The translations under genes were made by a program, and so were the position numbers. DNA of 31,048 nt. It comes from a virus. Positions 789-24,204 of the stretch are shown here, one piece after another. Each line of letters starts with the position of its first letter. The stretch's first letter is position 1. The DNA is taken from the IMG/VR virus record IMGVR_UViG_3300005329_000022, positions 1 through 31,048 of that record; one strand, given 5' to 3'. The notes under the pieces were generated by a model that saw only the letters and a program-made list of their open reading frames with translations, did no database searches and was not told the DNA's origin.

Positions 789-1195
789 GGTACTGCGCCT
801 TCGGCGAGTGCTCGAGGGAGGCGTACAAGGGCGATCTGTGCAACGCGCACCGGCAGCAGCGAAAGCGCGGTGCCCCGCTCCGACCGCTGCGTGACGCGCA
901 GGGCGGCCGCTTCCACGGAGACCCGAAAGGGCGCCTGAAGCGAGCAGCTCTCGCCTACGCCGACGCCTGCCTCGAAGACGAGCCGCGCGCATGGAAGAAC
1001 CTAGCCGACGCCGCCCGGTGGTTCGTTCGAGGTGTGCCGAAGTCGGGAAGCAAGAGCGTGGCTGATGCCCTCCAAGGGGTACGAGACGCGGTGAAGCGCC
1101 TCGCAACGGGGCTCGGTCACCCCCCGCGTACCCCTCCCCACCGACGCTCATGGGGTGTCGAAGGCCCCTCAGAACAAGGGCAAAACAAGCCCTGA
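785..1195 (+). CDS. Small zinc-finger-like protein, 136 aa
   Basis: The GTG start at 785 overlaps the previous stop (GTGA). The N-terminus has CAFGECSREAYKGDLCNAH followed by a basic stretch. This Cys-x4-Cys...Cys-x2-His spacing is like the small zinc module seen at the front of many phage HNH-type or DNA-binding proteins. No HNH catalytic motif follows, so I do not call it a nuclease. The rest is basic and helical. Its last 41 bases overlap the small terminase gene in another frame, and the repeated promoter-like element at 1123-1149 lies inside its 3' end, where its own sequence turns Pro/Arg-rich. Confidence 0.6.
   Translation: MRYCAFGECSREAYKGDLCNAHRQQRKRGAPLRPLRDAQGGRFHGDPKGRLKRAALAYADACLEDEPRAWKNLADAARWFVRGVPKSGSKSVADALQGVRDAVKRLATGLGHPPRTPPHRRSWGVEGPSEQGQNKP
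1123..1149 (+). promoter_or_regulatory. Bipartite promoter-like element, copy 1 (before small terminase)
   Basis: Box 1 is CCCGCGTACCCC at 1123-1134 and box 2 is GACGCTC at 1143-1149. GTAC to GACGC start-to-start spacing is 15, and box 2 to the GTG start at 1155 is 12, as in copies 2, 4 and 5. No Shine-Dalgarno sequence lies between the element and the start codon. This copy lies within the end of the upstream reading frame. The promoter role is inferred from recurrence and placement. Confidence 0.55.
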
Positions 1196-1469
1196 CCGAG
1201 ACGCCTCCGGGCGGCTGCTGAAGGGCTCGACGGCAAACCCGGGCGGTCGACCCAAGACGCCGGAGGACATCAAGAAGGCGTTCGAGGCAGCCAACCCGCG
1301 GGCGGTCGAACGGCTGATCGAGCTCCTCGAATCGAAGAACGAGAAGGTCGCGCTCCGGGCCGCTGAAATCATCATCGAGCGCACGCTCGGCAAGGTCTCC
1401 CAGCCCATCGCGCACTCCGGCTCCGTCAGCTACTCGATCATCGACCCGTTCGCGGAGCCGAGGCCTTGA
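1155..1469 (+). CDS. terS: Terminase small subunit (DUF5681-like), 104 aa
   Basis: This is the likely DNA-recognition subunit of the packaging motor, placed directly before the large subunit. The N-terminus is basic and Gly/Pro-rich with GSTANPGGRPKTPEDIK, the G-x-NP-x-GRPk signature of DUF5681-type small terminases. It is followed by helices (AVERLIELL, ALRAAEIIIERTLGK) that resemble the oligomerisation part. The GTG start at 1155 gives MSKAPQN; an ATG five bases upstream is in another frame. There is no clear ribosome site, and the promoter-like element sits 12 bases before the start. The stop overlaps the next start (TTGA). Confidence 0.8.
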   Translation: MSKAPQNKGKTSPDRDASGRLLKGSTANPGGRPKTPEDIKKAFEAANPRAVERLIELLESKNEKVALRAAEIIIERTLGKVSQPIAHSGSVSYSIIDPFAEPRP

Positions 1470-2791: not shown

Positions 2792-2801
2792 GGAGAAACC
2801 A

Positions 2802-3104
2802 ATGGGTGGAGTTTTCAACGACATCACCAGGACCGTGAGCAACACCGTGGGCGGCGCACCGAAGGCCGTCGCGGCGCCCCTCGAGAAGGAGATCAAGGCG
2901 ACGTACGACAAGAACACCACCGACTTCGCGAAGGCGAACGCGGAGACCATGGCGCCTGACTTCACGGACCAGGCCGTGCGCGCGCGGCGCATGGCGCAGA
3001 CGCTGCAGTTGATGTCGGGCCGCGGTCGAAAGCAGTCGTTCCTCGGCGGGGACTACGGCGCTGAGACGCTCGGCGGCGGCTCGATGCTCGGGGGCGCGCC
3101 TTGA
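2802..3104 (+). CDS. Hypothetical protein between terminase and portal, 100 aa
   Basis: The ATG at 2802 is preceded by AGGAGA at 2791-2796; the earlier in-frame ATG at 2742 lies inside the terminase and is unlikely. The protein starts with MGGVFNDIT, has a charged helical centre and ends in a Gly-rich tail (GGDYGAETLGGG). Short proteins with a similar Gly-rich end are often found between the terminase and portal genes of BPP-1-like podoviruses, where their role is not well defined. Its stop overlaps the portal start (TTGA). A minor head component is possible but not shown. Confidence 0.75.
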   Translation: MGGVFNDITRTVSNTVGGAPKAVAAPLEKEIKATYDKNTTDFAKANAETMAPDFTDQAVRARRMAQTLQLMSGRGRKQSFLGGDYGAETLGGGSMLGGAP

Positions 3105-4828: not shown

Positions 4829-4829
4829 A

Positions 4830-4861
4830 GCGCCCCCACGTACCTCGCGAGGCAGACGCTT
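4830..4861 (+). promoter_or_regulatory. Bipartite promoter-like element, copy 2 (before exported protein)
   Basis: GCGCCCCCACGTACCTC at 4830-4846 and GACGCTT at 4855-4861 have the 15-base start-to-start spacing seen in the other copies; box 2 to the ATG at 4867 is 12 bases. This copy also holds a perfect 10-base palindrome, CCTCGCGAGG, at 4843-4852. It fills the gap between the portal stop and the next ATG, and there is no Shine-Dalgarno sequence. Confidence 0.6.
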
Positions 4862-4866: not shown

Positions 4867-5358
4867 ATGCGAAAGCTCGCCTACGTCCTCCTCGCAGCGC
4901 TGGGTCTGGCCTTCGTTGCGCACGCACAGCAGCGGCGCTCCGATGGGAAAATCCACATCGGCTCGAAGGACACCGACGTGGTGGTCGAGGGCAACATCAT
5001 CTGGACCTCGCCCGACGGCGGCTCCTCGCACACCCCGGCGAGCGGGCTCACGGGCGCCGCGGTGGTGAAGGCCGACGTCCTCGACGCCGGCGTCTCCCGG
5101 TTCAACGGAGACACGCAGTTCTTCGGCAACCCGGTGTGCGGCTCAAGCGCTGTCTGCGGAAGCGTGGCGCTCACGTCTGGGACACCGTCCACTGCTACGG
5201 TGACAGTGCGGTCGGGTGCATCGTGTGCGTGCTGGCCCACCGGTAACACCGCGGCGATCGCCGCAGCGGGCTGCGCGACGAGCGTGAGTTCGACCACACT
5301 GACGCTCACCGGGCCCAACTCGGTCACCACCACGATGCGGTACTTCTGCTGGTACTGA
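4867..5358 (+). CDS. Exported Cys-rich protein, 163 aa (moron-like)
   Basis: It starts with a textbook Sec signal peptide: MRK, a hydrophobic core, and AHA before QQRR, so cleavage is expected near residue 20. The mature part has a GDTQFFGNP segment and a C-terminal domain with several Cys (CACW, AGC, FCWY end). The segment KADVLDAGV and the Cys-bearing, Ser/Thr-rich C-terminus resemble parts of the 478-residue protein at 22739, so the two look related, this one lacking the Gly-rich shaft. It sits oddly between the portal and the Bbp19-like gene with its own promoter-like element, which suggests an inserted cargo gene. It may be exported to the host envelope or be a virion decoration. Confidence 0.8.
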   Translation: MRKLAYVLLAALGLAFVAHAQQRRSDGKIHIGSKDTDVVVEGNIIWTSPDGGSSHTPASGLTGAAVVKADVLDAGVSRFNGDTQFFGNPVCGSSAVCGSVALTSGTPSTATVTVRSGASCACWPTGNTAAIAAAGCATSVSSTTLTLTGPNSVTTTMRYFCWY

Positions 5359-5362: not shown

Positions 5363-5677
5363 GTGACCGAGAGCGAACTCTCGCTCGAGCAGGACTCCGC
5401 GGCCGCATGGGTGCTGTCGACTCCGCAAGGGCGCGCGTTCTGGTTCCGCATCGTCCACGGCCACGACCTCGGCATGCTGCACCGGAGCTCGCGCGTGCCC
5501 GGCGACCCGGAAGGCACGGCCCGGAACGAAGGGCGGCAAGACCTCGCGCGCGACCTGTTGGCCCTCGCCAGACGTACGAACGAGACGCTCTTCGAGAAGA
5601 TGATGCAGGAGGCCTACGGGCGCAGCCGCAGGGTTGAAAGCGCCCGCGTACCCCCGGACGGTGACGCTTCGCCCTGA
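5363..5677 (+). CDS. Bbp19-like phage protein, 104 aa
   Basis: The sequence WVLSTPQGRAFWFRIV, a Gly/Ser-containing link, then TARNEGRQDLARDLLALA matches the small family typified by Bordetella phage BPP-1 Bbp19, which lies between portal and scaffold genes as here. The exact role is not established; a head assembly function is inferred from position. The GTG start at 5363 comes four bases after the previous stop. The last residues (after MMQEAYGRS) look non-conserved because the third promoter-like element lies inside the 3' end at 5640-5669. Confidence 0.78.
   Translation: MTESELSLEQDSAAAWVLSTPQGRAFWFRIVHGHDLGMLHRSSRVPGDPEGTARNEGRQDLARDLLALARRTNETLFEKMMQEAYGRSRRVESARVPPDGDASP
5640..5669 (+). 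promoter_or_regulatory. Bipartite promoter-like element, copy 3 (before scaffold)
   Basis: GCGCCCGCGTACCCCC at 5640-5655 is identical over 16 bases to copy 4. GACGCTT at 5663-5669 keeps the 15-base spacing. The distance from box 2 to the scaffold ATG at 5680 is 17 rather than 12. The element overlaps the end of the preceding gene. There is no Shine-Dalgarno sequence before the ATG. Confidence 0.6.
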
Positions 5678-5679
5678 CG

Positions 5680-6378
5680 ATGGGCGACGCGACCTCGACC
5701 ACCACCGCGACGGAAACCACCACAGGAGGCGCGCCGCCCGCGTCCATCGTGGGCGGGACCGACGCGAAGGTCGAGGCTACCGCGACCACGACTGCGACCG
5801 CGACGGAGACGAAGACCGCTGCGACCGAGACGAAGAGCGCAGCGGGCGAATCGAAGGACGCCAAGGCCGAGACGAAGACCGACACCAAGCCGGCGCTGGT
5901 CGACGACAAGTGGGAGCCGAAGCAGGCGGAGGGCGTCAAGCGCGACGCGAAGGTGGTCGGCGAGGCGCGCGGGCTCTTCAAGAAGCTCGGGCTCACCTCG
6001 GAGCAGGCGCAAGCGCTCGTCGAGTTCAGCGACGCCCAGGCCAAGACCCTAGCCGATGACGTGAAGGCAGCTGATGACGGTTGGCTCAAGGAGCTGCAGG
6101 ACGACAAGGAAATCGGCGGCCCCAAGCTCGCGGCGACTCGCGAGTCTGTGCGCGAGATGCTGCGCCAGCTGAAGAGCGGGCCGCAGCTCGCGAAGTGGGT
6201 CGACCAGATGGGCATCGGCAACGCGGCGCCGCTTGTGCGCGTGCTCGCCGAGCTCGCCTCGCGCACGCGCGAAGACACCGTGAAGAGCACTGTCGTCGAC
6301 CCCGCTGCGGCGGCGGTCAACGAGCAGGACCGCCGCACCGCCAAGACGTACGGCAACAACACTCGCAAGGAGTCGTAA
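5680..6378 (+). CDS. Scaffolding protein, 232 aa
   Basis: This is the internal scaffold that guides assembly of the capsid shell and then leaves. The evidence is its position immediately before the major capsid gene, its size, and a charged, mostly helical sequence. The first 70 residues are a low-complexity Thr/Ala/Lys/Glu run. A helical core follows with KKLGLTSEQAQALVEFSDAQ, a pattern common in podovirus scaffolds, and it ends with a basic tail (GNNTRKES), the part that usually contacts the capsid protein. The ATG at 5680 is two bases after the previous stop. Confidence 0.85.
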   Translation: MGDATSTTTATETTTGGAPPASIVGGTDAKVEATATTTATATETKTAATETKSAAGESKDAKAETKTDTKPALVDDKWEPKQAEGVKRDAKVVGEARGLFKKLGLTSEQAQALVEFSDAQAKTLADDVKAADDGWLKELQDDKEIGGPKLAATRESVREMLRQLKSGPQLAKWVDQMGIGNAAPLVRVLAELASRTREDTVKSTVVDPAAAAVNEQDRRTAKTYGNNTRKES

Positions 6379-6381: not shown

Positions 6382-7374
6382 ATGCCCACCACCGCCGTAG
6401 GCGCGACGCTCCCCACCTTCCTTGACGTCATGAAGCGCATGCGCCCGGACGGAGGCATCGAGCTCACGATGGCCGAGCTGATGGAGCAGGAGAACGGGCT
6501 CCTGAAAGACATGGTGTGGAAAGAGGGCAACCTCCCCACCGGTCACCGCATCACGCGGCGGTCGAGTGTCCCGACGCCCGAGTTCCGGCAGATCAACCAA
6601 GGTGTCTCGCGCGCGAAGAGCCGCTCGGACCAGGTCGACGAGTCGGTGGGCCTGATGGAGGCCCTTTCGGTGGTCGACGTGCGCCTCGCTCGCCTGAACG
6701 GGAACGACGGTGCGTGGAGGGCCAGCGAGGACATGGCCTTCCGGGTGGGCTTCAACAACACCTTCGAGACCACCATGTGGTACGGCAACACGGAGATCGA
6801 CCCCGAGAAGTGGATGGGGTTCGGTCCGAGGTTCGACCTCACCACCGCGGCGTTCGGCGGACAGATGGTCGCCTCCGGCATCTCGGCCTCGGGTTCCGAC
6901 CAGAACAGCCTCTGGTTCATCGACTGGGGCATGGACACCGTCCACGGCATCTACGCGAAGGGCGGCAAGGGCGGGCTTGACGTCCGCGTACTGCCCGACG
7001 ACCTGGTCACCGACGAGGACGGCAAGGAGTTCGAGGCGCACCGCACGAAGTTCGAGTGGGAGTGCGGCCTCGCGGTGCCTGACCCGCGCCACGTGGTGCG
7101 GGTCTACAACATCGACTCGAGCGCCATCTCGGCCGAGTCGTCGCTGCTCATTCAGGGAATCATCAAGGGGTACCACCAGCTGATGCGCGGCGGCCGTACG
7201 GTCGCGTACTGCAACCCCTTCGTCGCCGGCTACCTGCACCTGCAGGCCCGCTACGGCGCGCTGAACGGGACGCTGACCACCGACAACACGACCGGCCAGC
7301 CGGTGCAGAACATCATGGGCGTGCCGCTGCGCATCAGCCAGGGGCTCACCAAGACCGAAGACGCCCTCAGCTGA
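6382..7374 (+). CDS. Major capsid protein, 330 aa
   Basis: This is the shell-forming protein of the icosahedral head. It resembles the capsid proteins of BPP-1-like podoviruses: an N-terminal TLPTFLDVMKRMRPDG, then MVWKEGNLPTGHRITRRSS, FRVGFNNTFETTMWYGN in the middle, and a C-terminal part with GGRTVAYCNPFVAGYLHLQA. It has an HK97-type fold by family knowledge. AAGGAG at 6367-6372 precedes the ATG by nine bases, the strongest ribosome site in the head cluster and fitting for the most abundant virion protein. The cement protein follows 19 bases later. Confidence 0.93.
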   Translation: MPTTAVGATLPTFLDVMKRMRPDGGIELTMAELMEQENGLLKDMVWKEGNLPTGHRITRRSSVPTPEFRQINQGVSRAKSRSDQVDESVGLMEALSVVDVRLARLNGNDGAWRASEDMAFRVGFNNTFETTMWYGNTEIDPEKWMGFGPRFDLTTAAFGGQMVASGISASGSDQNSLWFIDWGMDTVHGIYAKGGKGGLDVRVLPDDLVTDEDGKEFEAHRTKFEWECGLAVPDPRHVVRVYNIDSSAISAESSLLIQGIIKGYHQLMRGGRTVAYCNPFVAGYLHLQARYGALNGTLTTDNTTGQPVQNIMGVPLRISQGLTKTEDALS

Positions 7375-9245: not shown

Positions 9246-9248
9246 GCC

Positions 9249-12523: not shown

Positions 12524-14260
12524 GTGAAAGTCCCCGTCTACGAGCAGCAGCAGGTAGCACCTCAGTCGGTCGGTCTGCCTATTGAGCACCTGCCTAACCC
12601 GAACTTTGGCGAGGTCGACGCGGCAGCGGCAAGTCTCGATCGCGCCGGCTCGACCATCGCCGCATCGGTGCGCCGCGAAGAAGACAAGGCGCGCGCGGCC
12701 GAGATAACCGACAGCGAGACCGAGCTCACCAAGCGAGTGACGGGCGAGCTCCACGGCGACAGCGCCTCCGGCAAGACCGGGTTCATGTCGTTGCAGGGCC
12801 GCGCAGCCGAGGCCGATGGCGCGCCTGTGATGCAGCGCATCGAGAAGCACCGGAAGGACATCGCCGACAGCCTGAAAGACGGCGAGGCGAAGAAGCTCTT
12901 CCTCGCGCGCACCGGCAAGCAGGTCGAGGCGTGGCGCTCGTCGGTGGAGACCTACGTCTCAGGTCAGCGCAAAGTCGCTGACGTCGCATCGCTGAAGGCG
13001 CGCGCCGACGCGGCCAGCGAGGCAATCTACAACTCCGCTCGCATCGGGGACGGCGCCTCGGTGCAGCAGCAGTCGGTCGCGCTCGAAGGGCCCATCCGAG
13101 CACTGGCGGTCTCCCCGGAAGACGCGGAGCACGACGTCGCGATGTGGCGACGGCAGACGGTGAAGGCCCAGCTTGATGCGTTCATGGACGTGAAGCGGCT
13201 CGACGTCGCCGAAGCACTGCTGAACGACACCAAGGATCAGCTCGGGCCCGAGCTCGTGAAGAAGTACCAGACCGAAATCGACAAGCGAAAGCTCGCGGTC
13301 ACCGCCGAGGGCGCGTCGGACGGCATCATCTCGAAGGCGCAGGAGGCGGTGCAGAACCGCGCATATGCCGAGCCCGATCGAGCGACGGCCGAACAGCTGC
13401 TGGCGAAGCTCCCGGCCGACGTTCAGGAGAAGGCCGGGCCCATCGTGCGCGGTCGCCTCGCCATGCTCACCGAGTCGGCCATCGTGCAGAAAAAGGAGTT
13501 CATCAACTCCGCCATCGGCGCCTACAACCGCAATCGCTCCGGGTTCTTCGCCACGCCGATGGCTGACCGGCTGAACGACGTCGACGCGCCGACGTACATG
13601 CAGCTGCGCAACCAGGAAGACCGCGCGCTCGAGCGCGTCGAGCGCAAGCAGCGCGTCCGACAGAACGACGCGGCCGCGCGCCGCGAGCAGGCGAACATCG
13701 ACAAGATCGCGATCAACGAGTGGCAGAAGCTCATCCTCACCGCGCCGAACGAAGCCGACATCGAGCAGTTCAAGGCGACGCACCAGGACATGAGTGCGGT
13801 GGCCGTGAGCCAGCTCGAGCCGATGCGGCTCAAAGCGGCAAAGGTGGTCGACAAGGCGGGCGAGCAGAGCATCAGCGAATTCACCACCTCCGCGATGGCC
13901 GACGCCGACGGGTTCCTGCCGGAGCCCGGCAGCTCGAAGGCCTCGAAGGACGCCGCGAGGAACGCGCGCGACGACTTCAAGACGAAGGCGCAGCGCGCGT
14001 ACATGCAGGCCTTCGAGGAGAACAAGGGCCAGCCGCTCAGCCCAGAGCAGGCGGCGAACCTGCGCGCGGCGCTCGTTCGAGGCCTGCCGGTTAATCCGAA
14101 GCGGCCCGAGACCATTCAGCGGTTCACTGAAGCGGTGAAGCGTGGAGCCGGTGCGCCGGCGACCGCGAAACCGTCGAAGCGAGACCGTGCGCTGCAACTG
14201 CGCGGTCAGGGCAAGAGCAGCCAGCAGATCGCCGACACCCTGAACGCCGAGGGTTACTGA
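12524..14260 (+). CDS. Internal virion / ejection protein C (T7 gp15-like position), 578 aa
   Basis: The GTG at 12524 comes two bases after the preceding stop; the longer upstream frame is Arg-rich shadow. The protein is almost entirely alpha-helical, rich in Ala, Glu, Lys and Asp, with long coiled-coil segments. Examples are a helix near residues 355-400 (YMQLRNQEDRALERVERK) and a C-terminal small helix-turn-helix-like end (LQLRGQGKSSQQIADTLNA). This composition and place before the giant protein fit the gp15-type core protein that lines the ejection channel. No enzyme motif is visible. The stop overlaps the next ATG. Confidence 0.72.
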   Translation: MKVPVYEQQQVAPQSVGLPIEHLPNPNFGEVDAAAASLDRAGSTIAASVRREEDKARAAEITDSETELTKRVTGELHGDSASGKTGFMSLQGRAAEADGAPVMQRIEKHRKDIADSLKDGEAKKLFLARTGKQVEAWRSSVETYVSGQRKVADVASLKARADAASEAIYNSARIGDGASVQQQSVALEGPIRALAVSPEDAEHDVAMWRRQTVKAQLDAFMDVKRLDVAEALLNDTKDQLGPELVKKYQTEIDKRKLAVTAEGASDGIISKAQEAVQNRAYAEPDRATAEQLLAKLPADVQEKAGPIVRGRLAMLTESAIVQKKEFINSAIGAYNRNRSGFFATPMADRLNDVDAPTYMQLRNQEDRALERVERKQRVRQNDAAARREQANIDKIAINEWQKLILTAPNEADIEQFKATHQDMSAVAVSQLEPMRLKAAKVVDKAGEQSISEFTTSAMADADGFLPEPGSSKASKDAARNARDDFKTKAQRAYMQAFEENKGQPLSPEQAANLRAALVRGLPVNPKRPETIQRFTEAVKRGAGAPATAKPSKRDRALQLRGQGKSSQQIADTLNAEGY

Positions 14261-17200
14261 TGCCCGTCACAGCCGATGATGTGGACGCGCTGCTCGCCGA
14301 GCCGGCGCCTACCGCGCCCGCGACAACCGCAGCCGACGTCGATGCCCTGCTCGACGAGGGTGCCCCAGCGACCCAGGCCCCGGCGCCCACCTACAAGTAC
14401 GCCGCCGGCTCGACCGCGGTGCACCTGGTCGCGCCGGGCCAGCAGTACCCTGATCAACCGACCTACGAGCTGAGCGAAGAGGAGGCGACGCGCGCCTCGA
14501 AGATTCGCTCAATCTTCAAGGCCGGGTGGGTCTCGAACCCCGACGAAGAGGCGGCGGTTCTGAACCTCGCGAAGCAGACGGGCATGTCGCGAGACACGGT
14601 GCGGCCACAGCTGAAGCCGCTCGAGCAAACGTGGTTCGAGGCGAACTTCGACGAGGTGAAGTGGATGCGCGCGCACCCCGAACTCGCGCGCTGGATGCTC
14701 GAGAACCCCGAGGTCGGCCCGGTCGTCGTGCGCGACAAGAAGGTCAACGCGCTGATGCGGGCGTGGCGCTGGTGGGACGACGCCACCGCGCAGCCGTGGG
14801 ACTTCGACGCAGACGAGTTCGAAAAGCTCCGCGCGGAAGGGCTGAGCCCGGGCGCAGCGTTCACCGAGCTGAAGGAACAGCGAGCGGCTGTGCGCGACGC
14901 GCCTCAGAAGGAAGTGCTGGTCGACGACGAGAAGGCCAAGGCGCTGCGCGAGCAGGGATGGGTCGACGTCGGCGGAGGCTTCGTCATTCCCAGCGCGTTC
15001 GCCATCGCCGGGGCTCGAGCGGGTGAGGCGTGGGACCGCTTCAAGCTCTCGCGCGCAGGGTACGAGCTCATGCTCGCGAACCAGCGCGGCGACACGGAGG
15101 CGGCGAGCGACCTCGAGGGGCGCATCCACGACCTGCGGGTCACCTCGGTTCGACGCGACTACAACGAGGGCGAAGTCGGCCAGGTGCTCTCGATGATGAC
15201 CGAAGCGGCTGCGTCGACGGCGTACGGGCTGAAGGAAGGGGTGTCGCTCGGTGCCACAGCCGGCGCCGCGGCGGGACTGGGTACCCTGGTCGCCACCCGC
15301 AACCCGAAAGCAGCGCTCGACGCGGGGCTGAAGGTCGGCTCGCTGTTCGGCAAGGCAGGGGCGGTCAAGGGCACGTTCGAGCTCGAGGCCGGCGGCGACT
15401 ACCTCGACCTGCTCGGCTCGAAGCGCGACGACGGGAGCGAAGTCGACGAGCCCACCGCGCGGGCGGCGGCCACCATCTCGGGCGCCATCAAGTCGATGAT
15501 CGAGTTCGCCTCGTGGGGCCCGATGCTCAAGTCGTTCGGTCCTCTCGGCGAGGCGGTGAGGCTCGGCGAGGCGAAGGCCATCGCGCAGGCGCTCGCTCGC
15601 AGCCAGTCGTTCCAGCAGACCTTGCGAACCGTCGGGAAGAACTGGCTCGAGGCAGCGGCCACCGAGGGCGGCGAGGAGTTCCTGCAGGACGCGGTCGAGC
15701 AGGCGGTGAAGTACATCGCCCAATCGAGCGACCCGACGGTGCGCGGGTTCCGCGAGAAGTACAACCCCACGCAGGGCGCCGAGGCGCTGACGACCGGAGC
15801 CATCGGCGGCGTGGGCCTCGCCGGCGCCGGCAGCGTCGCAACGCTGACCTTCGACACCTACGCGATGGCGCGTGCTCGAGCGCGCGGCGAAGACGTGAAG
15901 GCGGTGCTCGCGCTCGCTGATGGGCCAGCGGTCGCCGCAGCGCCGGATGCGGTCGCGAAGCTGATCGAGCAGACCTCGGGCCAGGGCGGCCCGGCCATCA
16001 CCGCGCTGCACGTGGATGCCGGCGCCTTCGTTCGGTACTTCCAGGACGCGAAGGCCGACGTGAACGAGGCGGCGAAGGCGCTCATGGGCGAGGACGGCCC
16101 GCGCCGAGTGCAGGAGGCGGTCGCGACCGGCGGGCGCATCGAGGTGCCCATCGGCGAGTACCTCAAGAGCTGGGGCGGAACGAAGGTGGCCGAGGCGCTG
16201 GCGAAGGACACGGCGACCGACGCCGGCGCGCTCACGGTCGCCCAGCTCGACGCAATGGAGAAGCGGGCCGATGAGCTCGCCAAGGAGAACACGCCGGCGG
16301 AGACCGGGGGCGAGCAGCTGTGGCTCGACGCGGTCGAGGGCCAGCTCGCCGCGGTGCAGGGCGAAGGGAAGGCGGCTGCTCGGAAGCAGGTCGCGCTATT
16401 GCGCGCGTTCGTTCGCACGCAGGCGGAGGTCTTCGGGCGAAGCGCCGACAAGCTGTTCGGCGACCTCGCCTTATCGGTCATGTCGGGCGACGAGACCGCG
16501 CTCGGCGGCACGCGCCTCTTTCAGGAGCAACAGTCGCCCGAGGCCTCGCAGGTGCTGTCAGAGCGGGCGCGCACGCTCTCGCCAGCGGACCGCGCGCGCG
16601 AGCTCTACCGCGACCCGGTGACCGGGCTCGGCAACCGGCGGGCATGGGACGAGACGAAGCACCCGGCCGGCTCTCAGGTCGCGGTCATCACCTCGCCCGA
16701 TGTGAAGGCAATCAACGACGACGTTCAGGGTGGGCACGACACGGCCAACGCGCTGCTGCGCCACATCGGCCAGGCGGTCGGTCAGTTCGACCCGACCGCG
16801 GCGCGCAGCGGGACGAACTTCCTGATTCACGTGAACGGACAGGAGGGGCTGGCGGCCGCGCTCGAGCAGATCCGCTCAGCCTTGCCAGACTCCAGGCTGA
16901 GCGTCGACGGCGCGCTCGGGGAGAACCTCGACAAGGCGTTCGAGAAGCTCGACACCGAGACCGAGGCGAAGCGGAAGGCGGGCGCCCTGCCCGCCCGCGG
17001 GAAGACGAACGTCGACCTCACCAACCTGCCGGAGCTCGAGAAGCGGTTCGCGCAGCAGCCGCTCGAGCTCGGGCTGCCTGAAGACCTGGTGTCGAAGGCA
17101 GGCAACCTCGAGTTGGGCGCGTTCTTCAAGGAGGCGTATCTCGACAAGTCGATGCCCGGGGTGTTGTCGAAGACCGGGTTCGATGCGGTCGGCGATCGAG

Positions 17201-20200
17201 CGTTCGTCGGCAGCCTCGACCTCAAAGGCCTAAAGCTGGTGAACACCACCTTCGGCAAGGCTATCGGCGACAAGCTCCTCGAGAACTTCGCCAGGGTGGC
17301 GATGGAGAGCGGCGGCTCAGCGCTCCACTTCGCTCACCTCTCGGGCGACGAATTCGCGATCAAGGGAGACGACCGCGCGGCCCTCGACGAGTTCATTCAA
17401 GATCTTAGCGATGCGCTGAGGGGTCCGGGGACAGCCCTCTTTGCGCCGCTCGCCGGAAGGTCTTACATTGTGCGCAGTGAATTCCGCTCAGGCATCGGAG
17501 AGAAGAGCTATGGCGCCGCCGATCAAGCCCTCAACCGTGGGAAGCGCGCCGAACCTGGAGGGGGCGGAGGAAGTCTCGCTGGAGCAATTCCACAAACTGG
17601 TGGCCGAGTCGGGGCAGAAACCCGACTCGGTTCAGATGCTGCATCGAGGGCGAGTGCTCTGGAGCAGCGACGAGCCCGCGCTCAAGCCAGGGGAGTACAG
17701 CCGCAGGCGTTCGTTGATCGACCGGCAGATCGAGCTGGAGGAGTCGGACAAGCGCCTGCAGGCAGCACTGGAAGCGCTGGACAACTCCTAGAAGACACGT
17801 CGTTCGAGACCTCCGAGCTCGACGCGCAACTCGAAGCTGATCAGAAGGTCGCAGCGGAGAGCCGCGCTCGGGCCGAAGCTTTCGTCGGCCGGATGAAGAA
17901 CCCGGCGAAGAAGGCGCTCGCCGAGAAAGAGCTACTTTACGCGCTCGGCGAGTCGGAAGAGCGCCCGGTCGGGGCGACTCCCGAAGAGCAGAAGGCGCTC
18001 GACGTGGTGCGGAAGGAGTTGGCGAACCGCTACGGCATCGCCCGCGACTTCTCGTTCGACGAAGGCGGTCGCTCGCTCGAGAAGAAGATGGGCGGCCGCG
18101 GCCGCAAGGCCGGCGGCGACCTCGCTGCACGCATGGCCCAGAAGGCCGGCGTCGGCCTCACCGGCAACGCTGCCGACTTCCACGCCTCGAGGAAGAAGGG
18201 CGGGAAGATGGTCTTCGCTGGCGAGCCCAGCGCGCCCCGCGGGTGGACTGAGCTTTTGAACAAGGCGCAGAAGCGGGTGATCCGCATTGCCCTGACGAAG
18301 AGCCAGGACATGTCGACGTTCCTACACGAGACGGGGCACGTGTTCCTCGAACTGATGGGCGACCTGGCCGACCTCGAGGGCGCGCCCGCTCGCGTGCGTG
18401 ACGACTACTCCACCGCGCTGCAGTGGCTGGGCGCAGAGAACCGCTCGGGCATCACCCGCGAGATGCACGAGAAGTGGGCGCGCGGCTTCGAGCGCTACCT
18501 CATGGAGGGCAAGGCGCCTTCGACGAAGCTGGCCGGGGCATTCGAGCGCTTCAAGCTGTGGCTCCGCGAGGTGTACCGGAACATCAGTGCCCTGAACGTC
18601 GAGCTCAGCGACGACATTCGAGGCGTGTTCGACCGGCTGCTCGCCACCGACCGCGAGCTCGAGCGGGCCCGCGCGAAGATGGGCATCGACCGACCGCTCG
18701 CCCGCGACATCCTCGGCATGACGCTCGAGCAGTTCCAGGAGTACCTAGACCTGCGGGAGAAGGCGGCGACGCACGCGGCCCGGCAGGCCGAGCTCACCGC
18801 CCTGAAAGACCGGCTCCGCGAGAACGAGCAGTGGTGGAAGGACGAGTACAAGAAGGAGCTCGAGGCGGCCGAGGCGGAGTGGGAGGGGTTGCCGGCGCGG
18901 CTTGCGCAGCTGGTGCTCCAGGGCAAGGGCGAACTCTGGGGTGGCACCACGACGGCCGTGGTGCTGCAGCGCGACGAGGTGGTCGCCGCGGTCGGGCCCG
19001 AGAACGCGAAGAAGTTCCGCACGTCGCAAGAAGGAGCGAGCCCCGACGAGGTGGCTGGCGAGCTCTTCCAGACCTTCAAGACCGGCGCGCAGATGCTCGA
19101 CGCCATCGTCCACCTTCCCGACAAAGCGAAGTGGTCGAAGGCCTTCGCGTACGAGCGCATGGCCGAGAAGCACGGCGACATTCTCGCGGAGCGGCTGCGG
19201 CTGGCCGACGAAGTGAGCAAAGGCCTGCACGGCGACATGACGCTGCAGGTGCTCGAGCGCGAGCTCGGTGCGCTCTACGCCCGCGTGCCGGGAGAGTTGG
19301 GCATCACCCGGGCGCCACCGGTGGCCACGCTCCAGCTCGCCGCGCGGAAGATGGTCGAGCGGCGCGCCGTCGGGCGTCTCGACCCAGGCGCTACGCTCAC
19401 CGCCGAGCGACAGGCGGCGCAGGCAGCGATGCGCGCTGCGGCCAAGGGGAACTACGCCGAGGCTCTGCTGCAGAAAGAGCGGCAGCTGCTGAATATGTTC
19501 GCGTGGCGATTCCTCACCGAGGCCCGCGAGGAGCGCGACGCGTTCGTCGAGCTCGCCTCGAAGCTGGCCAGCGACAAGGGGCTCGCGCGGTTGGGCAAGG
19601 GTCGACCGGTGTACCGCGACGGGGTCGCCTCGCTGCTCGCGAAGCTCGGGTTCGCTGATGAGCCCGAGGACGCCCCGTCGCTGGGCGAGGTGGTGCAGGC
19701 CATGGCGACCGACGGTGCGACGGTGATGTTCGACGAGCCCGCGCTGACGAAGCTCCTCGCGAAGCCGATGGACTGGAGGGCCCTCACCGTTGCCCAGATG
19801 CGCCAGGTGGTCGACGCGCTGAAGAACATCAGGGGTGCGGCGAACGCGAAGGCGCAGGTCATCGTCGACGGGAAGCGCTTCGACAAGGCGACCATCGTGG
19901 GCGAAATCGTGATGAACGCCCCGAATCTGCCGCCCCTGCCTCCGATGCCCTCGAGTCGGGAGGCGATGACCGGCGGGGAGAAGGCGAAGAGCTGGGTCGC
20001 CAGCGCCGACGGCAGCCTGCTGCGCATCGAGACGATGATCGATTGGCTCGCCGGCGGCGACATGAAGTCCATCTGGTACCGCGCGCTGATGAAGCCCATG
20101 CAGGAAGCGAAGGCGCGCGAGGCTGACGTTCTGAAGGCGACCATCAAGCCGATCATCGAGGCCTTCGAGAAGGTGCCGGCAAAGGTGCGCAAGCGCTTCA

Positions 20201-22041
20201 TGGAGAAGGTCGACGGGCGCGCGCTCTTCCCCGACCACGAGGTCGCGCTCGACCAGGCGCTCGAGCCTCCCACCCGGCGCTTCGAACTCCTGATGATGGC
20301 GCTCAACGCGGGCAACGAGTCGAACCTCGTGCGCCTGCTCGAGGGGCGGAACATCACCATGCCGCAGTTGCAGGCGGCGATCGACCTGCTGACGAAGGAA
20401 GAGCTCGACTGGGTGCAGAGCATCTGGAACGCCTCTGAGAGCCTGTGGCCTCAAGCGGCTGAGCTCGAGGAACGCGACACCGGCCTCCGCCCGGAGAAGC
20501 TCGAGCTCCGGGCGCTGCACACGAAACATGGCACCTACGTCGGCGGGTACTTCCCGGCGGTGTACGACCGGCGCGTCGAGGCAGCGGGCGAGCGGCAGGC
20601 GGCGAACCAGCTCGCCGACCTGATGGACCCCAGCTTCACCCGGCCCGGCACGGCGCGCAGCCACCTCAAGAGCCGCGTCGACGGCTTCACCGGGGCAATC
20701 AGCCTGTCACCCGGCACCATCGCTCGCTCGCTCGGCCAGGTCGCGCACGACATCGCCTACCGCGAGGCGGTGAAGTCGGTGGGAAATCTGATTCTCGACC
20801 CCGAAGTGCAGGCAGAGCTCGGCCGGCGGCTGGGCGACGAGCGCCGGCAGCAGTTCCTCCAATGGGTGAAGGACATCGGCTCGATGCGCGGGGCGGAAGG
20901 CTCGGCGCACGCCAGCGCCCTGACCTCCCTCGTGAAGGCACTGCGCGGAAACACCATCACTGCGGTGCTCGGCTACTCGGTGCCGACCGCTGCAGGCGAC
21001 CTCGCGAACCTGGTCGCCATTCTCCCGCGCACCGGGCTGAAGGTGAGCCACTGGGCGGCAGGCCTGCTCGAGTTCTTCACCTCGCCAAAGCAGGCCATCG
21101 CCATGGCTGAGGGGCTGTCGGGCGAGCTCCGCACCCGGCGCGACCAGCTACAGCGCGACTTCAAGAACCAGGTGAGAGACCTCACCGCCTCGGGCCCGCT
21201 GTCCCGCGGGCCGCTCGCGTGGCTCAAGGACCACGCCTTTGCGTTCATGGAGTTCACCGACCTGATCACCTCCACGCCCATCTGGATGGGCGCGTACCGA
21301 CAGGCGCTCGCCGAAGGGAAGAGCCAGAAAGACGCGGTGGAGTTCGCTGACGCTCTGGTGCGCCGCAACTTCCCGGGGCACTCGCCCGTCGACCAGGCGG
21401 CGGTGCTGCGGGACCGCGGCTTCATCGGCTCCTCGCTGATGTTCTACGGGTACTTCAACGTGCTCTACAACGGCATGCGCGACCTCGGGCATCAGCTCTC
21501 CATGAGCGACAGCACGCTCGAGCGCGTGAAGCTCGGCGGCCGCATGCTCGCCTTCATGAGCGCGGCGGTGGTGCTGTCGGAGCTGCTCTCGGGCCGCGGG
21601 CGCGAGGACGACGAGGAGTGGTCGCAGTGGTACCTCCGCAAGCTGCTCGTCGGCAGCGCGGCGTCGGTGCCGTTCGGCGGCGACATCGCGACGGCCATCG
21701 AGCAGAAGGCGCTCGGGAAGCACGCGAACCCGCGACAGAGCGGGCTCGTGGCGGCGGCGACCGCGGTGGGCACGAGCGGGTGGGACCTCGCCGAGCAGGT
21801 GGCTGCGGCGCTCAAGGGCGAGGGCGACCTGGCCGAGGCCGAGAAGAAGCTCGACGCCTTCATGCGGAACCTTGGGCCAATTCACGGCCTGCCCGTGTCG
21901 CAGCCGGCGCGCACCGCGGGGTACCTGAAAGACCTGCTCGAGGGCGACGTCCAAGCGGAGAACCCTGGCGACGTGCTCGGCGGACTCCTCTACGGCCAGC
22001 GCGAAAGGCAGCCGGCGAACCTGTTTGCACCGGCCCGGTAA
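14260..22041 (+). CDS. Giant multidomain internal virion / ejection protein (T7 gp16 position), 2593 aa
   Basis: About twice the size of T7 gp16 (1318) and in its place. Seen in order: a repeated DVDALL motif near residues 8 and 26; Gly/Ala-rich helices that could insert in membranes (about 328-347 and 512-530); a degenerate GGDEF-like domain (about 780-905, DPVTGLGNRRAW, SGTNF); a second GGDEF-like domain (about 975-1098, SGDEF at 1028-1032); a low-complexity linker that overlaps another reading frame; a zincin-like domain (HETGH, 1356-1360); long coiled coils (about 1470-1545); and an apolar C-terminal region (from about 2130) resembling the LPD38 part of large phage polyvalent proteins. 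No lytic transglycosylase motif was seen. By family logic it is packaged in the head core and enters the cell before the DNA. Enzyme activities are inference. Confidence 0.85.
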   Translation: MPVTADDVDALLAEPAPTAPATTAADVDALLDEGAPATQAPAPTYKYAAGSTAVHLVAPGQQYPDQPTYELSEEEATRASKIRSIFKAGWVSNPDEEAAVLNLAKQTGMSRDTVRPQLKPLEQTWFEANFDEVKWMRAHPELARWMLENPEVGPVVVRDKKVNALMRAWRWWDDATAQPWDFDADEFEKLRAEGLSPGAAFTELKEQRAAVRDAPQKEVLVDDEKAKALREQGWVDVGGGFVIPSAFAIAGARAGEAWDRFKLSRAGYELMLANQRGDTEAASDLEGRIHDLRVTSVRRDYNEGEVGQVLSMMTEAAASTAYGLKEGVSLGATAGAAAGLGTLVATRNPKAALDAGLKVGSLFGKAGAVKGTFELEAGGDYLDLLGSKRDDGSEVDEPTARAAATISGAIKSMIEFASWGPMLKSFGPLGEAVRLGEAKAIAQALARSQSFQQTLRTVGKNWLEAAATEGGEEFLQDAVEQAVKYIAQSSDPTVRGFREKYNPTQGAEALTTGAIGGVGLAGAGSVATLTFDTYAMARARARGEDVKAVLALADGPAVAAAPDAVAKLIEQTSGQGGPAITALHVDAGAFVRYFQDAKADVNEAAKALMGEDGPRRVQEAVATGGRIEVPIGEYLKSWGGTKVAEALAKDTATDAGALTVAQLDAMEKRADELAKENTPAETGGEQLWLDAVEGQLAAVQGEGKAAARKQVALLRAFVRTQAEVFGRSADKLFGDLALSVMSGDETALGGTRLFQEQQSPEASQVLSERARTLSPADRARELYRDPVTGLGNRRAWDETKHPAGSQVAVITSPDVKAINDDVQGGHDTANALLRHIGQAVGQFDPTAARSGTNFLIHVNGQEGLAAALEQIRSALPDSRLSVDGALGENLDKAFEKLDTETEAKRKAGALPARGKTNVDLTNLPELEKRFAQQPLELGLPEDLVSKAGNLELGAFFKEAYLDKSMPGVLSKTGFDAVGDRAFVGSLDLKGLKLVNTTFGKAIGDKLLENFARVAMESGGSALHFAHLSGDEFAIKGDDRAALDEFIQDLSDALRGPGTALFAPLAGRSYIVRSEFRSGIGEKSYGAADQALNRGKRAEPGGGGGSLAGAIPQTGGRVGAETRLGSDAASRASALEQRRARAQARGVQPQAFVDRPADRAGGVGQAPAGSTGSAGQLLEDTSFETSELDAQLEADQKVAAESRARAEAFVGRMKNPAKKALAEKELLYALGESEERPVGATPEEQKALDVVRKELANRYGIARDFSFDEGGRSLEKKMGGRGRKAGGDLAARMAQKAGVGLTGNAADFHASRKKGGKMVFAGEPSAPRGWTELLNKAQKRVIRIALTKSQDMSTFLHETGHVFLELMGDLADLEGAPARVRDDYSTALQWLGAENRSGITREMHEKWARGFERYLMEGKAPSTKLAGAFERFKLWLREVYRNISALNVELSDDIRGVFDRLLATDRELERARAKMGIDRPLARDILGMTLEQFQEYLDLREKAATHAARQAELTALKDRLRENEQWWKDEYKKELEAAEAEWEGLPARLAQLVLQGKGELWGGTTTAVVLQRDEVVAAVGPENAKKFRTSQEGASPDEVAGELFQTFKTGAQMLDAIVHLPDKAKWSKAFAYERMAEKHGDILAERLRLADEVSKGLHGDMTLQVLERELGALYARVPGELGITRAPPVATLQLAARKMVERRAVGRLDPGATLTAERQAAQAAMRAAAKGNYAEALLQKERQLLNMFAWRFLTEAREERDAFVELASKLASDKGLARLGKGRPVYRDGVASLLAKLGFADEPEDAPSLGEVVQAMATDGATVMFDEPALTKLLAKPMDWRALTVAQMRQVVDALKNIRGAANAKAQVIVDGKRFDKATIVGEIVMNAPNLPPLPPMPSSREAMTGGEKAKSWVASADGSLLRIETMIDWLAGGDMKSIWYRALMKPMQEAKAREADVLKATIKPIIEAFEKVPAKVRKRFMEKVDGRALFPDHEVALDQALEPPTRRFELLMMALNAGNESNLVRLLEGRNITMPQLQAAIDLLTKEELDWVQSIWNASESLWPQAAELEERDTGLRPEKLELRALHTKHGTYVGGYFPAVYDRRVEAAGERQAANQLADLMDPSFTRPGTARSHLKSRVDGFTGAISLSPGTIARSLGQVAHDIAYREAVKSVGNLILDPEVQAELGRRLGDERRQQFLQWVKDIGSMRGAEGSAHASALTSLVKALRGNTITAVLGYSVPTAAGDLANLVAILPRTGLKVSHWAAGLLEFFTSPKQAIAMAEGLSGELRTRRDQLQRDFKNQVRDLTASGPLSRGPLAWLKDHAFAFMEFTDLITSTPIWMGAYRQALAEGKSQKDAVEFADALVRRNFPGHSPVDQAAVLRDRGFIGSSLMFYGYFNVLYNGMRDLGHQLSMSDSTLERVKLGGRMLAFMSAAVVLSELLSGRGREDDEEWSQWYLRKLLVGSAASVPFGGDIATAIEQKALGKHANPRQSGLVAAATAVGTSGWDLAEQVAAALKGEGDLAEAEKKLDAFMRNLGPIHGLPVSQPARTAGYLKDLLEGDVQAENPGDVLGGLLYGQRERQPANLFAPAR
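16597..16980 (+). other. Degenerate GGDEF-like domain 1 (within giant protein)
   Basis: Residues 785-796 read DPVTGLGNRRAW, the classic opening of GGDEF domains. SPDVKAINDDVQGGHDTANALLRHIG follows in two halves (SPDVKAINDD, then GHDTANALLRHIG), matching the metal- and guanine-binding segment, but the first metal Asp is replaced. The signature loop is SGTNF (850-854) instead of GGDEF. The fold is probably kept while cyclase activity is probably lost. Confidence 0.65.
17182..17553 (+). other. GGDEF-like domain 2 with SGDEF signature (within giant protein)
   Basis: The segment SLDLKGLKLVN holds D987 and N995, and GD at 1003-1004 follows; these align with the metal Asp and the two guanine contacts of diguanylate cyclases. 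SGDEF at 1028-1032 keeps the G-D-E-F part of the signature. The closing SGIGEKSYGAADQALNRGKR matches the usual SIG...AD.AL..AK end. There is no RxxD inhibitory site before the signature. Activity is possible but unproven. Confidence 0.7.
17510..17791 (+). CDS. Overprinted gene inside the giant ejection-protein gene, 93 aa (hypothetical)
   Basis: This frame is +1 relative to the giant gene. The ATG at 17510 has GGAG at 17497-17500 with nine bases between, and the stop is TAG at 17789-17791. The protein looks like a normal globular or helical one: EEVSLEQFHKLVAESG, a short beta-like HRGRVLWSS and a charged C-terminal helix (RQIELEESDKRLQAALEAL). By my count about 85% of its codons end in G or C, as in true genes here, whereas the giant frame over the same bases drops to about half and reads as Gly/Ala/Arg/Gln low complexity. 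That pattern points to selection on this frame. No family is recognised and no membrane segment is seen. A TTG at 17441 could extend it. Confidence 0.65.
   Translation: MAPPIKPSTVGSAPNLEGAEEVSLEQFHKLVAESGQKPDSVQMLHRGRVLWSSDEPALKPGEYSRRRSLIDRQIELEESDKRLQAALEALDNS
18289..18660 (+). other. Zincin-like metallopeptidase domain (within giant protein)
   Basis: STFLHETGHVFLE places HETGH at residues 1356-1360, the HExxH zinc motif. About 50 residues later WARGFERYLMEGKAPS (E1411 in FERYL) offers a possible third ligand. The wording closely follows metallopeptidase-like domains common in very large phage and mobile-element proteins. The target is unknown. The alternative is a structural remnant, but the two His and the Glu are intact. 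Confidence 0.65.
20656..22038 (+). other. LPD38-like apolar C-terminal region (within giant protein)
   Basis: From about residue 2133 the sequence becomes richer in apolar helices (for example LAFMSAAVVLSELLSG near 2430), with conserved-looking phrases such as MFYGYFNVLYNGMRDL and VRRNFPGHSPVDQAA. These recall the domain named large polyvalent protein-associated domain 38, found at the ends of such proteins. A membrane-contact role during ejection is inferred. Confidence 0.5.
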
Positions 22042-22071
22042 GCGCCCGCGTACCCCCGCGGACCCACGCTT
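22042..22071 (+). promoter_or_regulatory. Bipartite promoter-like element, copy 4 (before tail fibre anchor)
   Basis: GCGCCCGCGTACCCCC at 22042-22057 begins directly after the giant gene's TAA. CACGCTT at 22065-22071 gives the 15-base spacing, and the GTG start at 22077 lies 12 bases from box 2. There is no Shine-Dalgarno sequence. It fills the whole intergenic gap. Confidence 0.62.
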
Positions 22072-22076
22072 CTTGC

Positions 22077-22730
22077 GTGTCCGTCACCGTCGAGACGAGC
22101 CAGGTCACCTACAACGGCAACGGCTTCGACACGGAGTTCTTCACGCTCTTCCCGTTCCTCGAGTCGGACGACCTGACCGTCGAGCAGCGCACCGGCACCG
22201 GGAACTGGAGCACGAAAACCGAGGGCGTCGACTACGCCGTCGATGGTGCTGGCGAGGACGAGGGCGGCATCGTGACGTTCACCGTCGCCCCGCCGAACGG
22301 CGACTCGGTGCGCATCACCCGCAACACCAACATCACGCAGACCGCCGACTTTCAGCCGCAGGGGCCCTTCCCCGTCGCGCGCCACGAAGACGCTCTCGAC
22401 AAGCTGACGCTCATTGCTCAGGACATCGAGCGAAGGGTTGATGTGCTCGAGGCTGGCGCAGTCGAGGTGACTCTCGCGGCCGCCCAAATCACCGACACCT
22501 TCACCGCGGCGGAGCCCATCGAAGACACCTTCCCACGGGTGGTCAGCTGCACCGGAACGCCTGCGTCGGTCATCCTCACGCGCATCGAGAACCTCTCGAC
22601 GCCGGGCGAGGTGCTCCCTGCGGAAGGGCTGCTCTGGGACACGCCGGCGGCCGGCTCCTTCACGGTGCAGCACCTCGAGGGGCTCACGCCCGGACAGCAG
22701 TACCGCGTTCGCTACCTCGTGCTCACGTAG
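22077..22730 (+). CDS. Tail fibre anchor protein (T7 gp17 N-terminal-like), 217 aa
   Basis: The first 130 residues fit the T7 tail fibre attachment domain: YNGNGFDTEFFTLFPFLESDDLTVEQ, seen as YNGNGFDTEF then TLFPFLESDDLTV, next GVDYAV, GGIVTF, a P-N-G-D turn, and ITRNTNITQTADF. It ends with LDKLTLIAQDIERRVDVLE, the usual coiled coil. A short beta-rich C-terminus with VRYLVLT replaces the long shaft and tip, so receptor binding probably falls to the following proteins that dock on it. The GTG at 22077 is chosen because the conserved domain starts there and the promoter-like element ends just before it. Confidence 0.85.
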   Translation: MSVTVETSQVTYNGNGFDTEFFTLFPFLESDDLTVEQRTGTGNWSTKTEGVDYAVDGAGEDEGGIVTFTVAPPNGDSVRITRNTNITQTADFQPQGPFPVARHEDALDKLTLIAQDIERRVDVLEAGAVEVTLAAAQITDTFTAAEPIEDTFPRVVSCTGTPASVILTRIENLSTPGEVLPAEGLLWDTPAAGSFTVQHLEGLTPGQQYRVRYLVLT

Positions 22731-22738
22731 GAGGCCTC

Positions 22739-24175
22739 ATGCGCCGAGTCGCCACCATCATTGTCTTTCTCATCGCATGCGCTGCCGCCGGCGACGTGCG
22801 ATGGAGGAACGGCGGGTCGACGCTCGGAACCGTCGTCGACGTGAACTGCGTGCGCGACGGCGGTCTGCTCTGCACACGAGACGCAGGCAGCGTCGGAGAC
22901 GTCCGGTGCATGGAGGCGTCGTCGACTGAGACCGGGTGCGTGACGCTCGGAGCTCAGACGTGGCTTGGCGACAAGACCGTCGTGGGCACGGTGAAGGCCA
23001 CGGTGCTCGATGGCGGTGTCGCAGCAGTCGGCTCAATGGACCTGCGGGCCAACACCTTCACTGGCCTGTCGACTTCAAGCTCGCTGACCATTCAGAGCAA
23101 CACCAGCGCCAGCACCACAACCAACACTGTCGCCGCCATGACCTTTAAGCTCGGCGCGAACATCGGCGGAGACCTGGGGTGGCGCTTCGAAGACAGTTCT
23201 GGCACGAAACGATTCGGAGTCACCGGGACGGGCACGGTGTACGCCCGCACGATGGTGACGGACGACGGTGCGGCGACGGCTACCGGCGAGAGCTTCTCAG
23301 TGCTGGTCGGCACCGGCGGCGCGTCGTCAGGAGCGACACCGGCCGGCGCTGGCGGCACTGCGCTCTATAGCTCTGGAGCTGGAGGGTCGTCGGCAGGGAG
23401 CGCGGCTGCTGGTAACGGTGGGCAGCTCACCATTCTTTCGGGCGCAGGAGGAAGCCCGAGCGGCGCCCAACCTGGTGGGTCCGGCGGAAACATTCTGATT
23501 CTCGCCGGCAACAACCGAGCTGGCGCGAGCGCGGCTGGCAACATCACCGTCACGGCCGGACCCGGCGCTCAAGCCACCGCTTCGCTCTCTCCTTCCGCTG
23601 GCGGCGCCGTGTCGATCTCGGGAGGAGCTGGCGGAGCCACCAGCTCCGGCACCGGCGAAGCCGGCGGAGCTGTCACGATTCGCGCAGGCACCGGCGGGAA
23701 CGGGGTCAGCGGCACATCTGGAGTGGGCGGCGATCTCACGCTCACGTCAGGCAACGCCGGAACCGCTGGCGTCTCCGGGGGCGCGAGCGGAAACGTGACG
23801 CTCGACACTGGGGCGGCGACAGGCGCGGCAACCAACGGCACCATGTCGCTCGGCACCACGAGCGCCAACTCCATCACCATTGGACGCTCCGGCAAGGCCG
23901 TAACGGTCAACGGCTACGGAGTCCTCACGACGCACGGCACCACGGTCCTTGCGGTCGAGAGCGGCGCTTCCGCGATGACCGCGAACGAGCTCGCCGTCAC
24001 CTTCGGCACCGCCTTCGGAGCTGCACCCGCCTGCACCTGCACACACGTGAACACGACGAACACCAACCCCTGCAACATCAAGTCAGGCAGCACGCCGACC
24101 ACCACCACCGTGACGTTCGCGGTGGCCTCGGGCGGCACCGACGTCGTCGACTGGATTTGCATCGGGACCCGGTAG
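22739..24175 (+). CDS. Gly-rich fibre-like protein with signal peptide, 478 aa
   Basis: GGAGG at 22730-22734 precedes the ATG. The N-terminus (MRR, apolar core, FLIACAAAG) is a signal peptide with a possible lipobox LIAC. Residues about 188-360 are a Gly/Ala/Ser/Thr shaft with recurring GGxLTI-SGAGG-type units, like polyglycine-helix or beta-helix adhesins. The last 80 residues form a Cys-containing cap (ACTCTH, NPC, WICIGTR) with the AVTFGTAFGAAPAC phrase common at the ends of phage fibre proteins. It follows the fibre anchor gene, so it is probably the receptor-binding fibre, but the export signal is unexpected for a virion protein. Confidence 0.75.
   Translation: MRRVATIIVFLIACAAAGDVRWRNGGSTLGTVVDVNCVRDGGLLCTRDAGSVGDVRCMEASSTETGCVTLGAQTWLGDKTVVGTVKATVLDGGVAAVGSMDLRANTFTGLSTSSSLTIQSNTSASTTTNTVAAMTFKLGANIGGDLGWRFEDSSGTKRFGVTGTGTVYARTMVTDDGAATATGESFSVLVGTGGASSGATPAGAGGTALYSSGAGGSSAGSAAAGNGGQLTILSGAGGSPSGAQPGGSGGNILILAGNNRAGASAAGNITVTAGPGAQATASLSPSAGGAVSISGGAGGATSSGTGEAGGAVTIRAGTGGNGVSGTSGVGGDLTLTSGNAGTAGVSGGASGNVTLDTGAATGAATNGTMSLGTTSANSITIGRSGKAVTVNGYGVLTTHGTTVLAVESGASAMTANELAVTFGTAFGAAPACTCTHVNTTNTNPCNIKSGSTPTTTTVTFAVASGGTDVVDWICIGTR
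23300..23815 (+). repeat. Imperfect Gly-rich coding repeats
   Basis: About 170 codons encode imperfect units of roughly 20-27 residues that alternate a short beta-like piece (QLTILSG, NILILAG, NITVTAG, AVSISGG, AVTIRAG, DLTLTSG, NVTLDTG) with a GG-rich turn. At least seven units can be counted. The DNA is diverged, so this is protein-level repetition rather than a recent tandem duplication. Confidence 0.75.
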
Positions 24176-24204
24176 CGCCCGCGTACCCCACGGGGACGAG
24201 CCTT
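24175..24204 (+). promoter_or_regulatory. Bipartite promoter-like element, copy 5 (before exported protein)
   Basis: GCGCCCGCGTACCCC at 24175-24189 starts on the last base of the previous TAG. Box 2 is the weaker GAGCCTT at 24198-24204, at the same 15-base spacing; the ATG at 24210 lies 12 bases from it. CCCCACGGGG at 24186-24195 is a small inverted repeat. There is no Shine-Dalgarno sequence. Confidence 0.58.

Follow-up and report, generated by a model that had tools for sequence, protein, structure and literature searches.

In the middle promoters of phage T4, a phage MotA box replaces the -35, and its distance to the sigma-70 -10 element is fixed; the box is AT-rich, centred at -30, and lies 12 ± 1 bp from an excellent TAtaaT (PMC2988021). 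In high-GC bacteria, the leaderless genes described as TA-led are marked by a -10-like signal some 12 bp 5' of the start codon (Zheng et al., 2011; PMC3160421). Cluster K mycobacteriophages contain start-associated sequences (SAS) that include AGGAG, the core of the Shine-Dalgarno (SD) sequence, and that lie in the non-structural half of the genome, while the related ESAS have inverted repeats and a -35 and contain putative SigA-like promoters (PMC3203893, PMC11373665). The middle and late promoters of Thermus phage P23-45 are of the extended -10 type (PMC7403470). Our literature search on late promoters in epsilon15/BPP-1-type phages found nothing relevant, and late-gene activation in this group seems not to have been described.

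The stretch of DNA analyzed here (the window) comprises an entire IMG/VR record (31,048 bases, 68% G+C) and is a fragment, about 31 kb long, of an uncultured epsilon15/BPP-1-type podovirus from which most of the early region is missing. Its gene order is epsilon15/BPP-1-like, running from the small and large terminase subunits (TerS and TerL) through portal, scaffold/protease-like protein and major capsid protein (MCP, GP7 family) to tail tube proteins, a 2593-aa internal protein and a tail fiber. A nucleotide search among annotated phages returned no near relative of the window, and a search for RNA families and tRNAs found none. The genes and the open reading frame (ORF) discussed below are as follows:

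785..1195, plus strand: zinc-finger-like ORF with CX4C...CX2H and an HNH-type match (phrog_19978), in synteny in four of the five phages
1155..1469, plus strand: small terminase subunit gene (DUF5681-like), GTG start, without SD, adjoining TerL, with TerS similarity to relatives
4867..5358, plus strand: post-portal gene, ATG start, without SD, signal-peptide-like N terminus, zero family matches
5680..6378, plus strand: scaffold/protease-like gene (phrog_458), ATG start
22077..22730, plus strand: tail fiber N-terminal/adaptor gene, GTG start, without SD
24210..24575, plus strand: small gene with a signal-peptide-like N terminus, ATG start, without SD, matching in position a gene at 7119 of the relative G002

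Elsewhere in the window, the giant internal protein (14260-22041) has a GGDEF domain match (E 1e-7, residues ~985-1095) and reads ...LSGDEFAIKG..., an SGDEF-type signature in what is presumably a virion protein; an LPD22-like match lies at its N terminus as well. We considered this protein as a virion RNA polymerase and rejected the idea, as the DxDGD motif is absent and PDB sequence matches were zero. An NlpC/P60-family protein, possibly a lysis enzyme, is encoded 3' of the tail genes (27082-27540).

A two-part element, comprising a left box (box 1) and a right box (box 2), precedes five genes of the window:

1120..1134, plus strand: copy 1 box 1 (CCCCCCGCGTACCCC), before the small terminase gene and within the 3' end of ORF 785-1195
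1143..1148, plus strand: copy 1 box 2, proposed -10 GACGCT, predicted RNA start ~1155
4830..4846, plus strand: copy 2 box 1 (GCGCCCCCACGTACCTC), before the post-portal gene
4855..4860, plus strand: copy 2 box 2, proposed -10 GACGCT, predicted RNA start ~4867
5640..5654, plus strand: copy 3 box 1 (GCGCCCGCGTACCCC), before the scaffold gene
5663..5668, plus strand: copy 3 box 2, proposed -10 GACGCT, predicted RNA start ~5675, giving a 5-nt leader
22042..22056, plus strand: copy 4 box 1 (GCGCCCGCGTACCCC), before the tail fiber gene
22065..22070, plus strand: copy 4 box 2, proposed -10 CACGCT, predicted RNA start ~22077
24175..24189, plus strand: copy 5 box 1 (GCGCCCGCGTACCCC), before the small signal-peptide-like gene
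24198..24203, plus strand: copy 5 box 2, proposed -10 GAGCCT, predicted RNA start ~24210

An earlier note, made from the sequence alone, had described five such copies with a rigid geometry, and our measurements bear it out. GTAC begins at 1128, 4840, 5648, 22050 and 24183, and box 2 begins exactly 15 nt later in all five copies (1143, 4855, 5663, 22065 and 24198). The start codon follows 12 nt past the beginning of box 2 in four copies (1155, 4867, 22077 and 24210) and 17 nt past it in the scaffold copy (5680). The description of the boxes themselves held in part. A GACGCTT-like box 2 is present in all five copies but varies (GACGCTC, GACGCTT, GACGCTT, CACGCTT and GAGCCTT), and the shared box 1 is an exact 15-mer common to copies 3, 4 and 5, whereas copy 1 is without the GCG lead and copy 2 has two extra bases there. 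With up to three mismatches allowed, the bipartite pattern occurs at exactly five sites in the window, a count reached in 0 of 100 shuffles; box 1 alone, as a degenerate pattern in the window, is not significant, while the pair is. A weight matrix gives the five copies on which it was trained 26.6-30.0 bits, and the next-best window site on either strand 8.3. Among viral contigs, the exact 15-mer returned 27 unrelated single matches. Two of the five elements sit before small genes with signal-peptide-like N termini, MRKLAYVLLA (4867-5358) and MRRLALAFFV (24210-24575), and comparable genes occur in two relatives (L082 7494-7850; the G002 gene at 7119).

All five copies lie on one strand, the coding strand, directly 5' of genes. 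Four directly follow the stop codon of the preceding gene, and copy 1 is within the 3' end of the open zinc-finger-like ORF, which overlaps the small terminase gene; the TerS copy of another relative, L188, likewise lies within the 3' end of an upstream ORF. Because pairs of copies flank gene blocks that may be exchanged (4830/5640 and 22042/24175), the element could be a recombination or boundary sequence marking exchangeable modules. We give this idea hardly any credence, as one copy overlaps a coding ORF, the spacing to the start codon is constrained, and, as described next, orthologous positions in relatives hold diverged, phage-specific boxes in place of a shared exchangeable sequence.

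Close relatives were found with TerL as the query; portal, MCP and tail-tube queries returned only distant relatives, ~28-39% identical. Four further phages, with TerL 60-88% identical, hold two to four copies each, bringing the total to 16 with the window, and in all 16 the geometry is fixed as GTNCNC - 9 nt - (G/C)ANNNT, with 16 nt from GT to A. In the closest, L082 (TerL 88%), the element occurs three times, 5' of the orthologous TerS, post-portal and scaffold genes, and box 1 carries the same change in all three (GCGTACCCC to CGTCCAC) while box 2 and the spacing are unchanged. G002 (the record of L083, 43,466 bases, near-complete; TerL 60%) has four copies of the box GGAAAGGGTCCGCGC, preceding the fiber gene, a small secreted gene, TerS and the scaffold gene. 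G004 (the record of L085, 38,773 bases; TerL 61%) has two copies of CAACGGAGTGCACAC, before TerS and the fiber gene, and L188/G011 (TerL 60%) carries its own box, GAGTTTGTCCAC, in two exact copies, one 5' of TerS and one 5' of the scaffold gene. The element thus precedes TerS in all five phages, the scaffold gene in four and the fiber gene in three, with the small secreted protein and the post-portal gene also among its genes across phages. Copies of box 1 hardly differ within a phage but do differ from one phage to the next. The existence of the element, its geometry and placement, its conservation in five phages, the co-divergence of box 1 and, as detailed below, the lack of SD sequences at its genes are shown by this analysis.

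We scanned 89 loci (the window, L082, two whole relatives and 85 loci found through TerL) for at least two similar 15-mers fitting GT - 16 nt - A - 3 nt - T, followed 10-17 nt later by a start codon. At the 16-nt spacing only the window, L082, G002 and G004 respond, none on the opposite strand, and other spacings gave few or none. Across the 16 copies G-27, T-26, C-24, A-11 and T-7 are invariant and C-22 is nearly so. Four of these (G-27, T-26, A-11 and T-7) are scan criteria, and for them invariance is informative only in G002 and G004, which were searched by box alone; there the chance of finding A...T at the offset is ~0.024^6, roughly 2e-10; the conservation of C-24 (100%) and C-22 (96%) lies outside the criterion. 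Taking the copies of each phage's own box, A...T stands at a constant offset in 5 (among 13 degenerate matches), 3/3, 4/4, 2/2 and 2/2. An all-pairs comparison of upstream regions was not used as a test, its null being contaminated by overlapping windows, and an unfiltered listing of 15-mer pairs was too noisy for use. The class was absent from 79 relatives selected by portal, mostly isolate prophages, suggesting that it is confined to a small clade.

The earlier note had held that its reading would fall if a genome-wide search found the pair equally often inside genes at random spacing. In G002 such a search by box found four sites on the late strand and none on the other, each directly 5' of a gene. 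G002 also encodes an integrase, so the phage group includes temperate members, and short repeats before the genes of such phages could be operators for a repressor or other regulator, resembling stoperators. That the elements are operators and not promoters strikes us as very improbable, given their single orientation, their fixed position relative to start codons and the location of box 2 at the -10 position; moreover, an arrangement in which box 1 serves a regulator and box 2 the polymerase merges into the explanation that we prefer.

That explanation, which on sequence evidence we consider probable and the best available, is that the elements are activator-dependent late promoters of T4-middle-like build that produce leaderless or near-leaderless mRNAs. 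If RNA begins at the start codon, box 2 spans -12 to -7, the place of the -10 element recognized by sigma factors. A-11 and T-7 are the most important positions for that recognition. Box 2, (G/C)ANNNT, would therefore serve as the -10, its A and T falling at -11 and -7 relative to the start codon, and box 1 would be the putative binding site of an activator, its core (GTNCNC) spanning -27 to -22 and its flank, particular to each phage, reaching to about -35. The activator, probably a phage-encoded protein, would replace the missing -35 contact, and host RNA polymerase would begin transcription at the first base of the start codon or a few bases 5' of it. The small terminase, the post-portal gene, the scaffold, the tail fiber and the small secreted protein would then be made from leaderless or near-leaderless mRNAs, and genes further downstream on those RNAs translated through ordinary SD sites or coupling. 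We infer late timing from gene content. The earlier note also suggested that the elements split the late genes into separately tuned modules; terminator-like sites were not found beside the elements, and RNAs begun at promoters further upstream probably read through them. The fixed geometry at orthologous genes of relatives, the co-divergence of box 1, the placement of the -10 and the pattern of SD sequences all support the promoter class that the earlier note had proposed.

The pattern of SD sequences had been described there as an absence at all five genes, and pairing with the anti-SD is indeed weak or missing (0.4, -5.9, -2.8, -3.2 and -5.7, against a mean of -6.8 for other genes). In four phages together, 14 element genes average -3.3 kcal/mol versus -6.7 kcal/mol for 99 others (p=2e-5). 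An element directly 5' of start codons at genes without SD might act in the RNA, as a 5'-leader signal for translation comparable to the cluster K SAS. The spacings speak otherwise, as the distance between the boxes is constant while that from the -10 A to the start codon ranges from A+10 to A+36, with A+16 and A+36 the exceptions to the usual placement. By this geometry, copy 2 of L188 and the scaffold copy of the window are not strictly leaderless. SD-like sequences occur only at copies whose start codon lies further off: GGGAG at the L188 scaffold gene, 36 nt after the -10 A, and GGAGG in the leader of a tail-tube-A copy in the more distant relative G014. This fits a promoter and not a ribosome-binding element. 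Furthermore, the elements share no RNA fold (mean z -0.16), and box 1 changes between phages without a matching change in box 2, leaving an RNA-level signal a slim prospect.

The promoter reading requires a source of binding energy other than the usual sigma-70 contacts. TTGACA-like -35 elements with a 15-19 bp spacer were not found in the 16 copies (1-3 of 6 bases match), the TGn of an extended -10 occurs in 0/16, and a promoter scanner returned zero sigma-70 -35/-10 promoters in the two regions scanned. Against the TA-led hexamer TANNNT, all 16 copies have A-11 and T-7, and most share its placement, but -12 is G or C and never T. With these contacts missing, and a base other than T at -12, the energy must come from box 1. 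By the sigma-70 standard the -10 is poor, and it may either need strong activation or be the site of an alternative sigma factor. In the latter case, the two boxes would be the -35-like and -10-like parts of a site for such a factor, either the host's or one of the phage's that escaped recognition, and no phage activator would be involved. The rigid spacing and orientation suit a sigma factor, as do the missing T at -12 and the missing match to TTGACA. Nevertheless, box 1 varies between phages while box 2 is kept, although differences between hosts could still explain the former, and at ~15 bp box 1 extends beyond the reach of one sigma region. A Sigma70_r4 profile gave zero matches in G000, G001, G002, G004 and G011, with positive controls, a result that applies to records that are mostly fragments and leaves a very divergent factor aside. 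On balance we regard an alternative sigma factor as unlikely.

Under the activator-dependent reading, near-identity of box 1 within each phage and difference between phages is what joint evolution of a factor and its sites would produce, and this co-divergence is why the element can be called phage-specific. The best candidate for the activator, weak and tentative, is the zinc-finger-like protein encoded beside TerS. It is 90-136 aa long, has conserved C4, C9, C19 and H22, and is encoded directly 5' of TerS in the window, L082, L188 and G002. The position directly upstream of TerS is where lambda Q or Mu C would lie. However, the protein resembles HNH proteins common near terminases, and it has zero similarity matches in G004, though that phage has the element. 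An AlphaFold model (pLDDT 63, pTM 0.36) was too weak for a fold search. A T7-type RNA polymerase profile (PF00940) gave zero matches, yet its controls were equally silent; the largest ORF of G002 outside the structural genes encodes 569 aa.

Three more distant relatives (TerL 46-55%) have other boxes repeated before the same kinds of genes: G013 (the record of L194) has five copies of CCGTACCCTTGAC, G014 (the record of L189) five of GTGTCCGTGACG, and G015 (the record of L178) four, counted by eye, of AAAATCCACTTG. The distance from box to -10 is the same in all five copies of G014 and in four of five in G013 and varies by one base in G015, where the -11 A is missing in one of four copies. The boxes of G013 and G014 lie ~10-11 bp further upstream than in the window class, and the -10s of these two are often near-canonical (TAAGGT, TAGTCT and TAGACT). 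G013 seemingly comes from an isolate genome. Among relatives of ~40% G+C (L015, L017 and L019-L022), a AAAAACTTTATTAGGATA-like stretch is repeated immediately 5' of two start codons (in L021, for example, near 9247 and 9919), perhaps as another start-associated signal. Limnohabitans phage DC33 (PQ492659, L079) is classed in Inoviridae; its 39-kb genome, with many genes of structural size, and its epsilon15-type portal homologue make that taxonomy look wrong.

We speculate, as a possibility that we would not yet favor, that this podovirus lineage expresses its structural genes from several dispersed leaderless-mRNA promoters under a rapidly evolving phage activator of a novel type, perhaps the zinc-finger-like protein. 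The specificity of box 1 would then have been reset phage by phage, and in the distant relatives the box would sit farther upstream by about one helical turn. The element yields exact predicted RNA starts in five phages, and the set of co-diverged boxes is a natural resource for finding the activator. Leaderless translation, if it occurs, would drive capsid and tail genes. The search rule, a repeated box plus a -10 at the start codon, has already found the comparable systems in more distant relatives.

Like the SAS and ESAS of cluster K, the elements are repeated signals just 5' of phage start codons, but they stand at structural genes and have neither SD nor -35; the 13-bp SAS GGGATAGGAGCCC was not found beside their start codons, and no element contains an SD core. 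With P23-45 they would share the character of promoters without a -35 for host polymerase, whose preference is shifted by phage proteins in P23-45, but TGn is at the extended -10 place in 0/16 copies. The TA-led leaderless genes likewise lack SD, and their -10-like signal, ~12 bp 5' of the start codon, has the placement seen at most copies of the element; box 2 begins with G or C instead of T, and a repeated upstream box is added. Finally, unlike T4 middle promoters, with the MotA box consensus TGCTT 12 ± 1 bp from the -10, the element has GTNCNC in a box 1 that ends ~9 bp from a poor (G/C)ANNNT, would drive structural genes and is predicted to give leaderless messages. The likeness to T4 lies in the build: a phage-specific box for the -35, a fixed distance to a proposed -10 at -12 to -7, and several copies in the genome.
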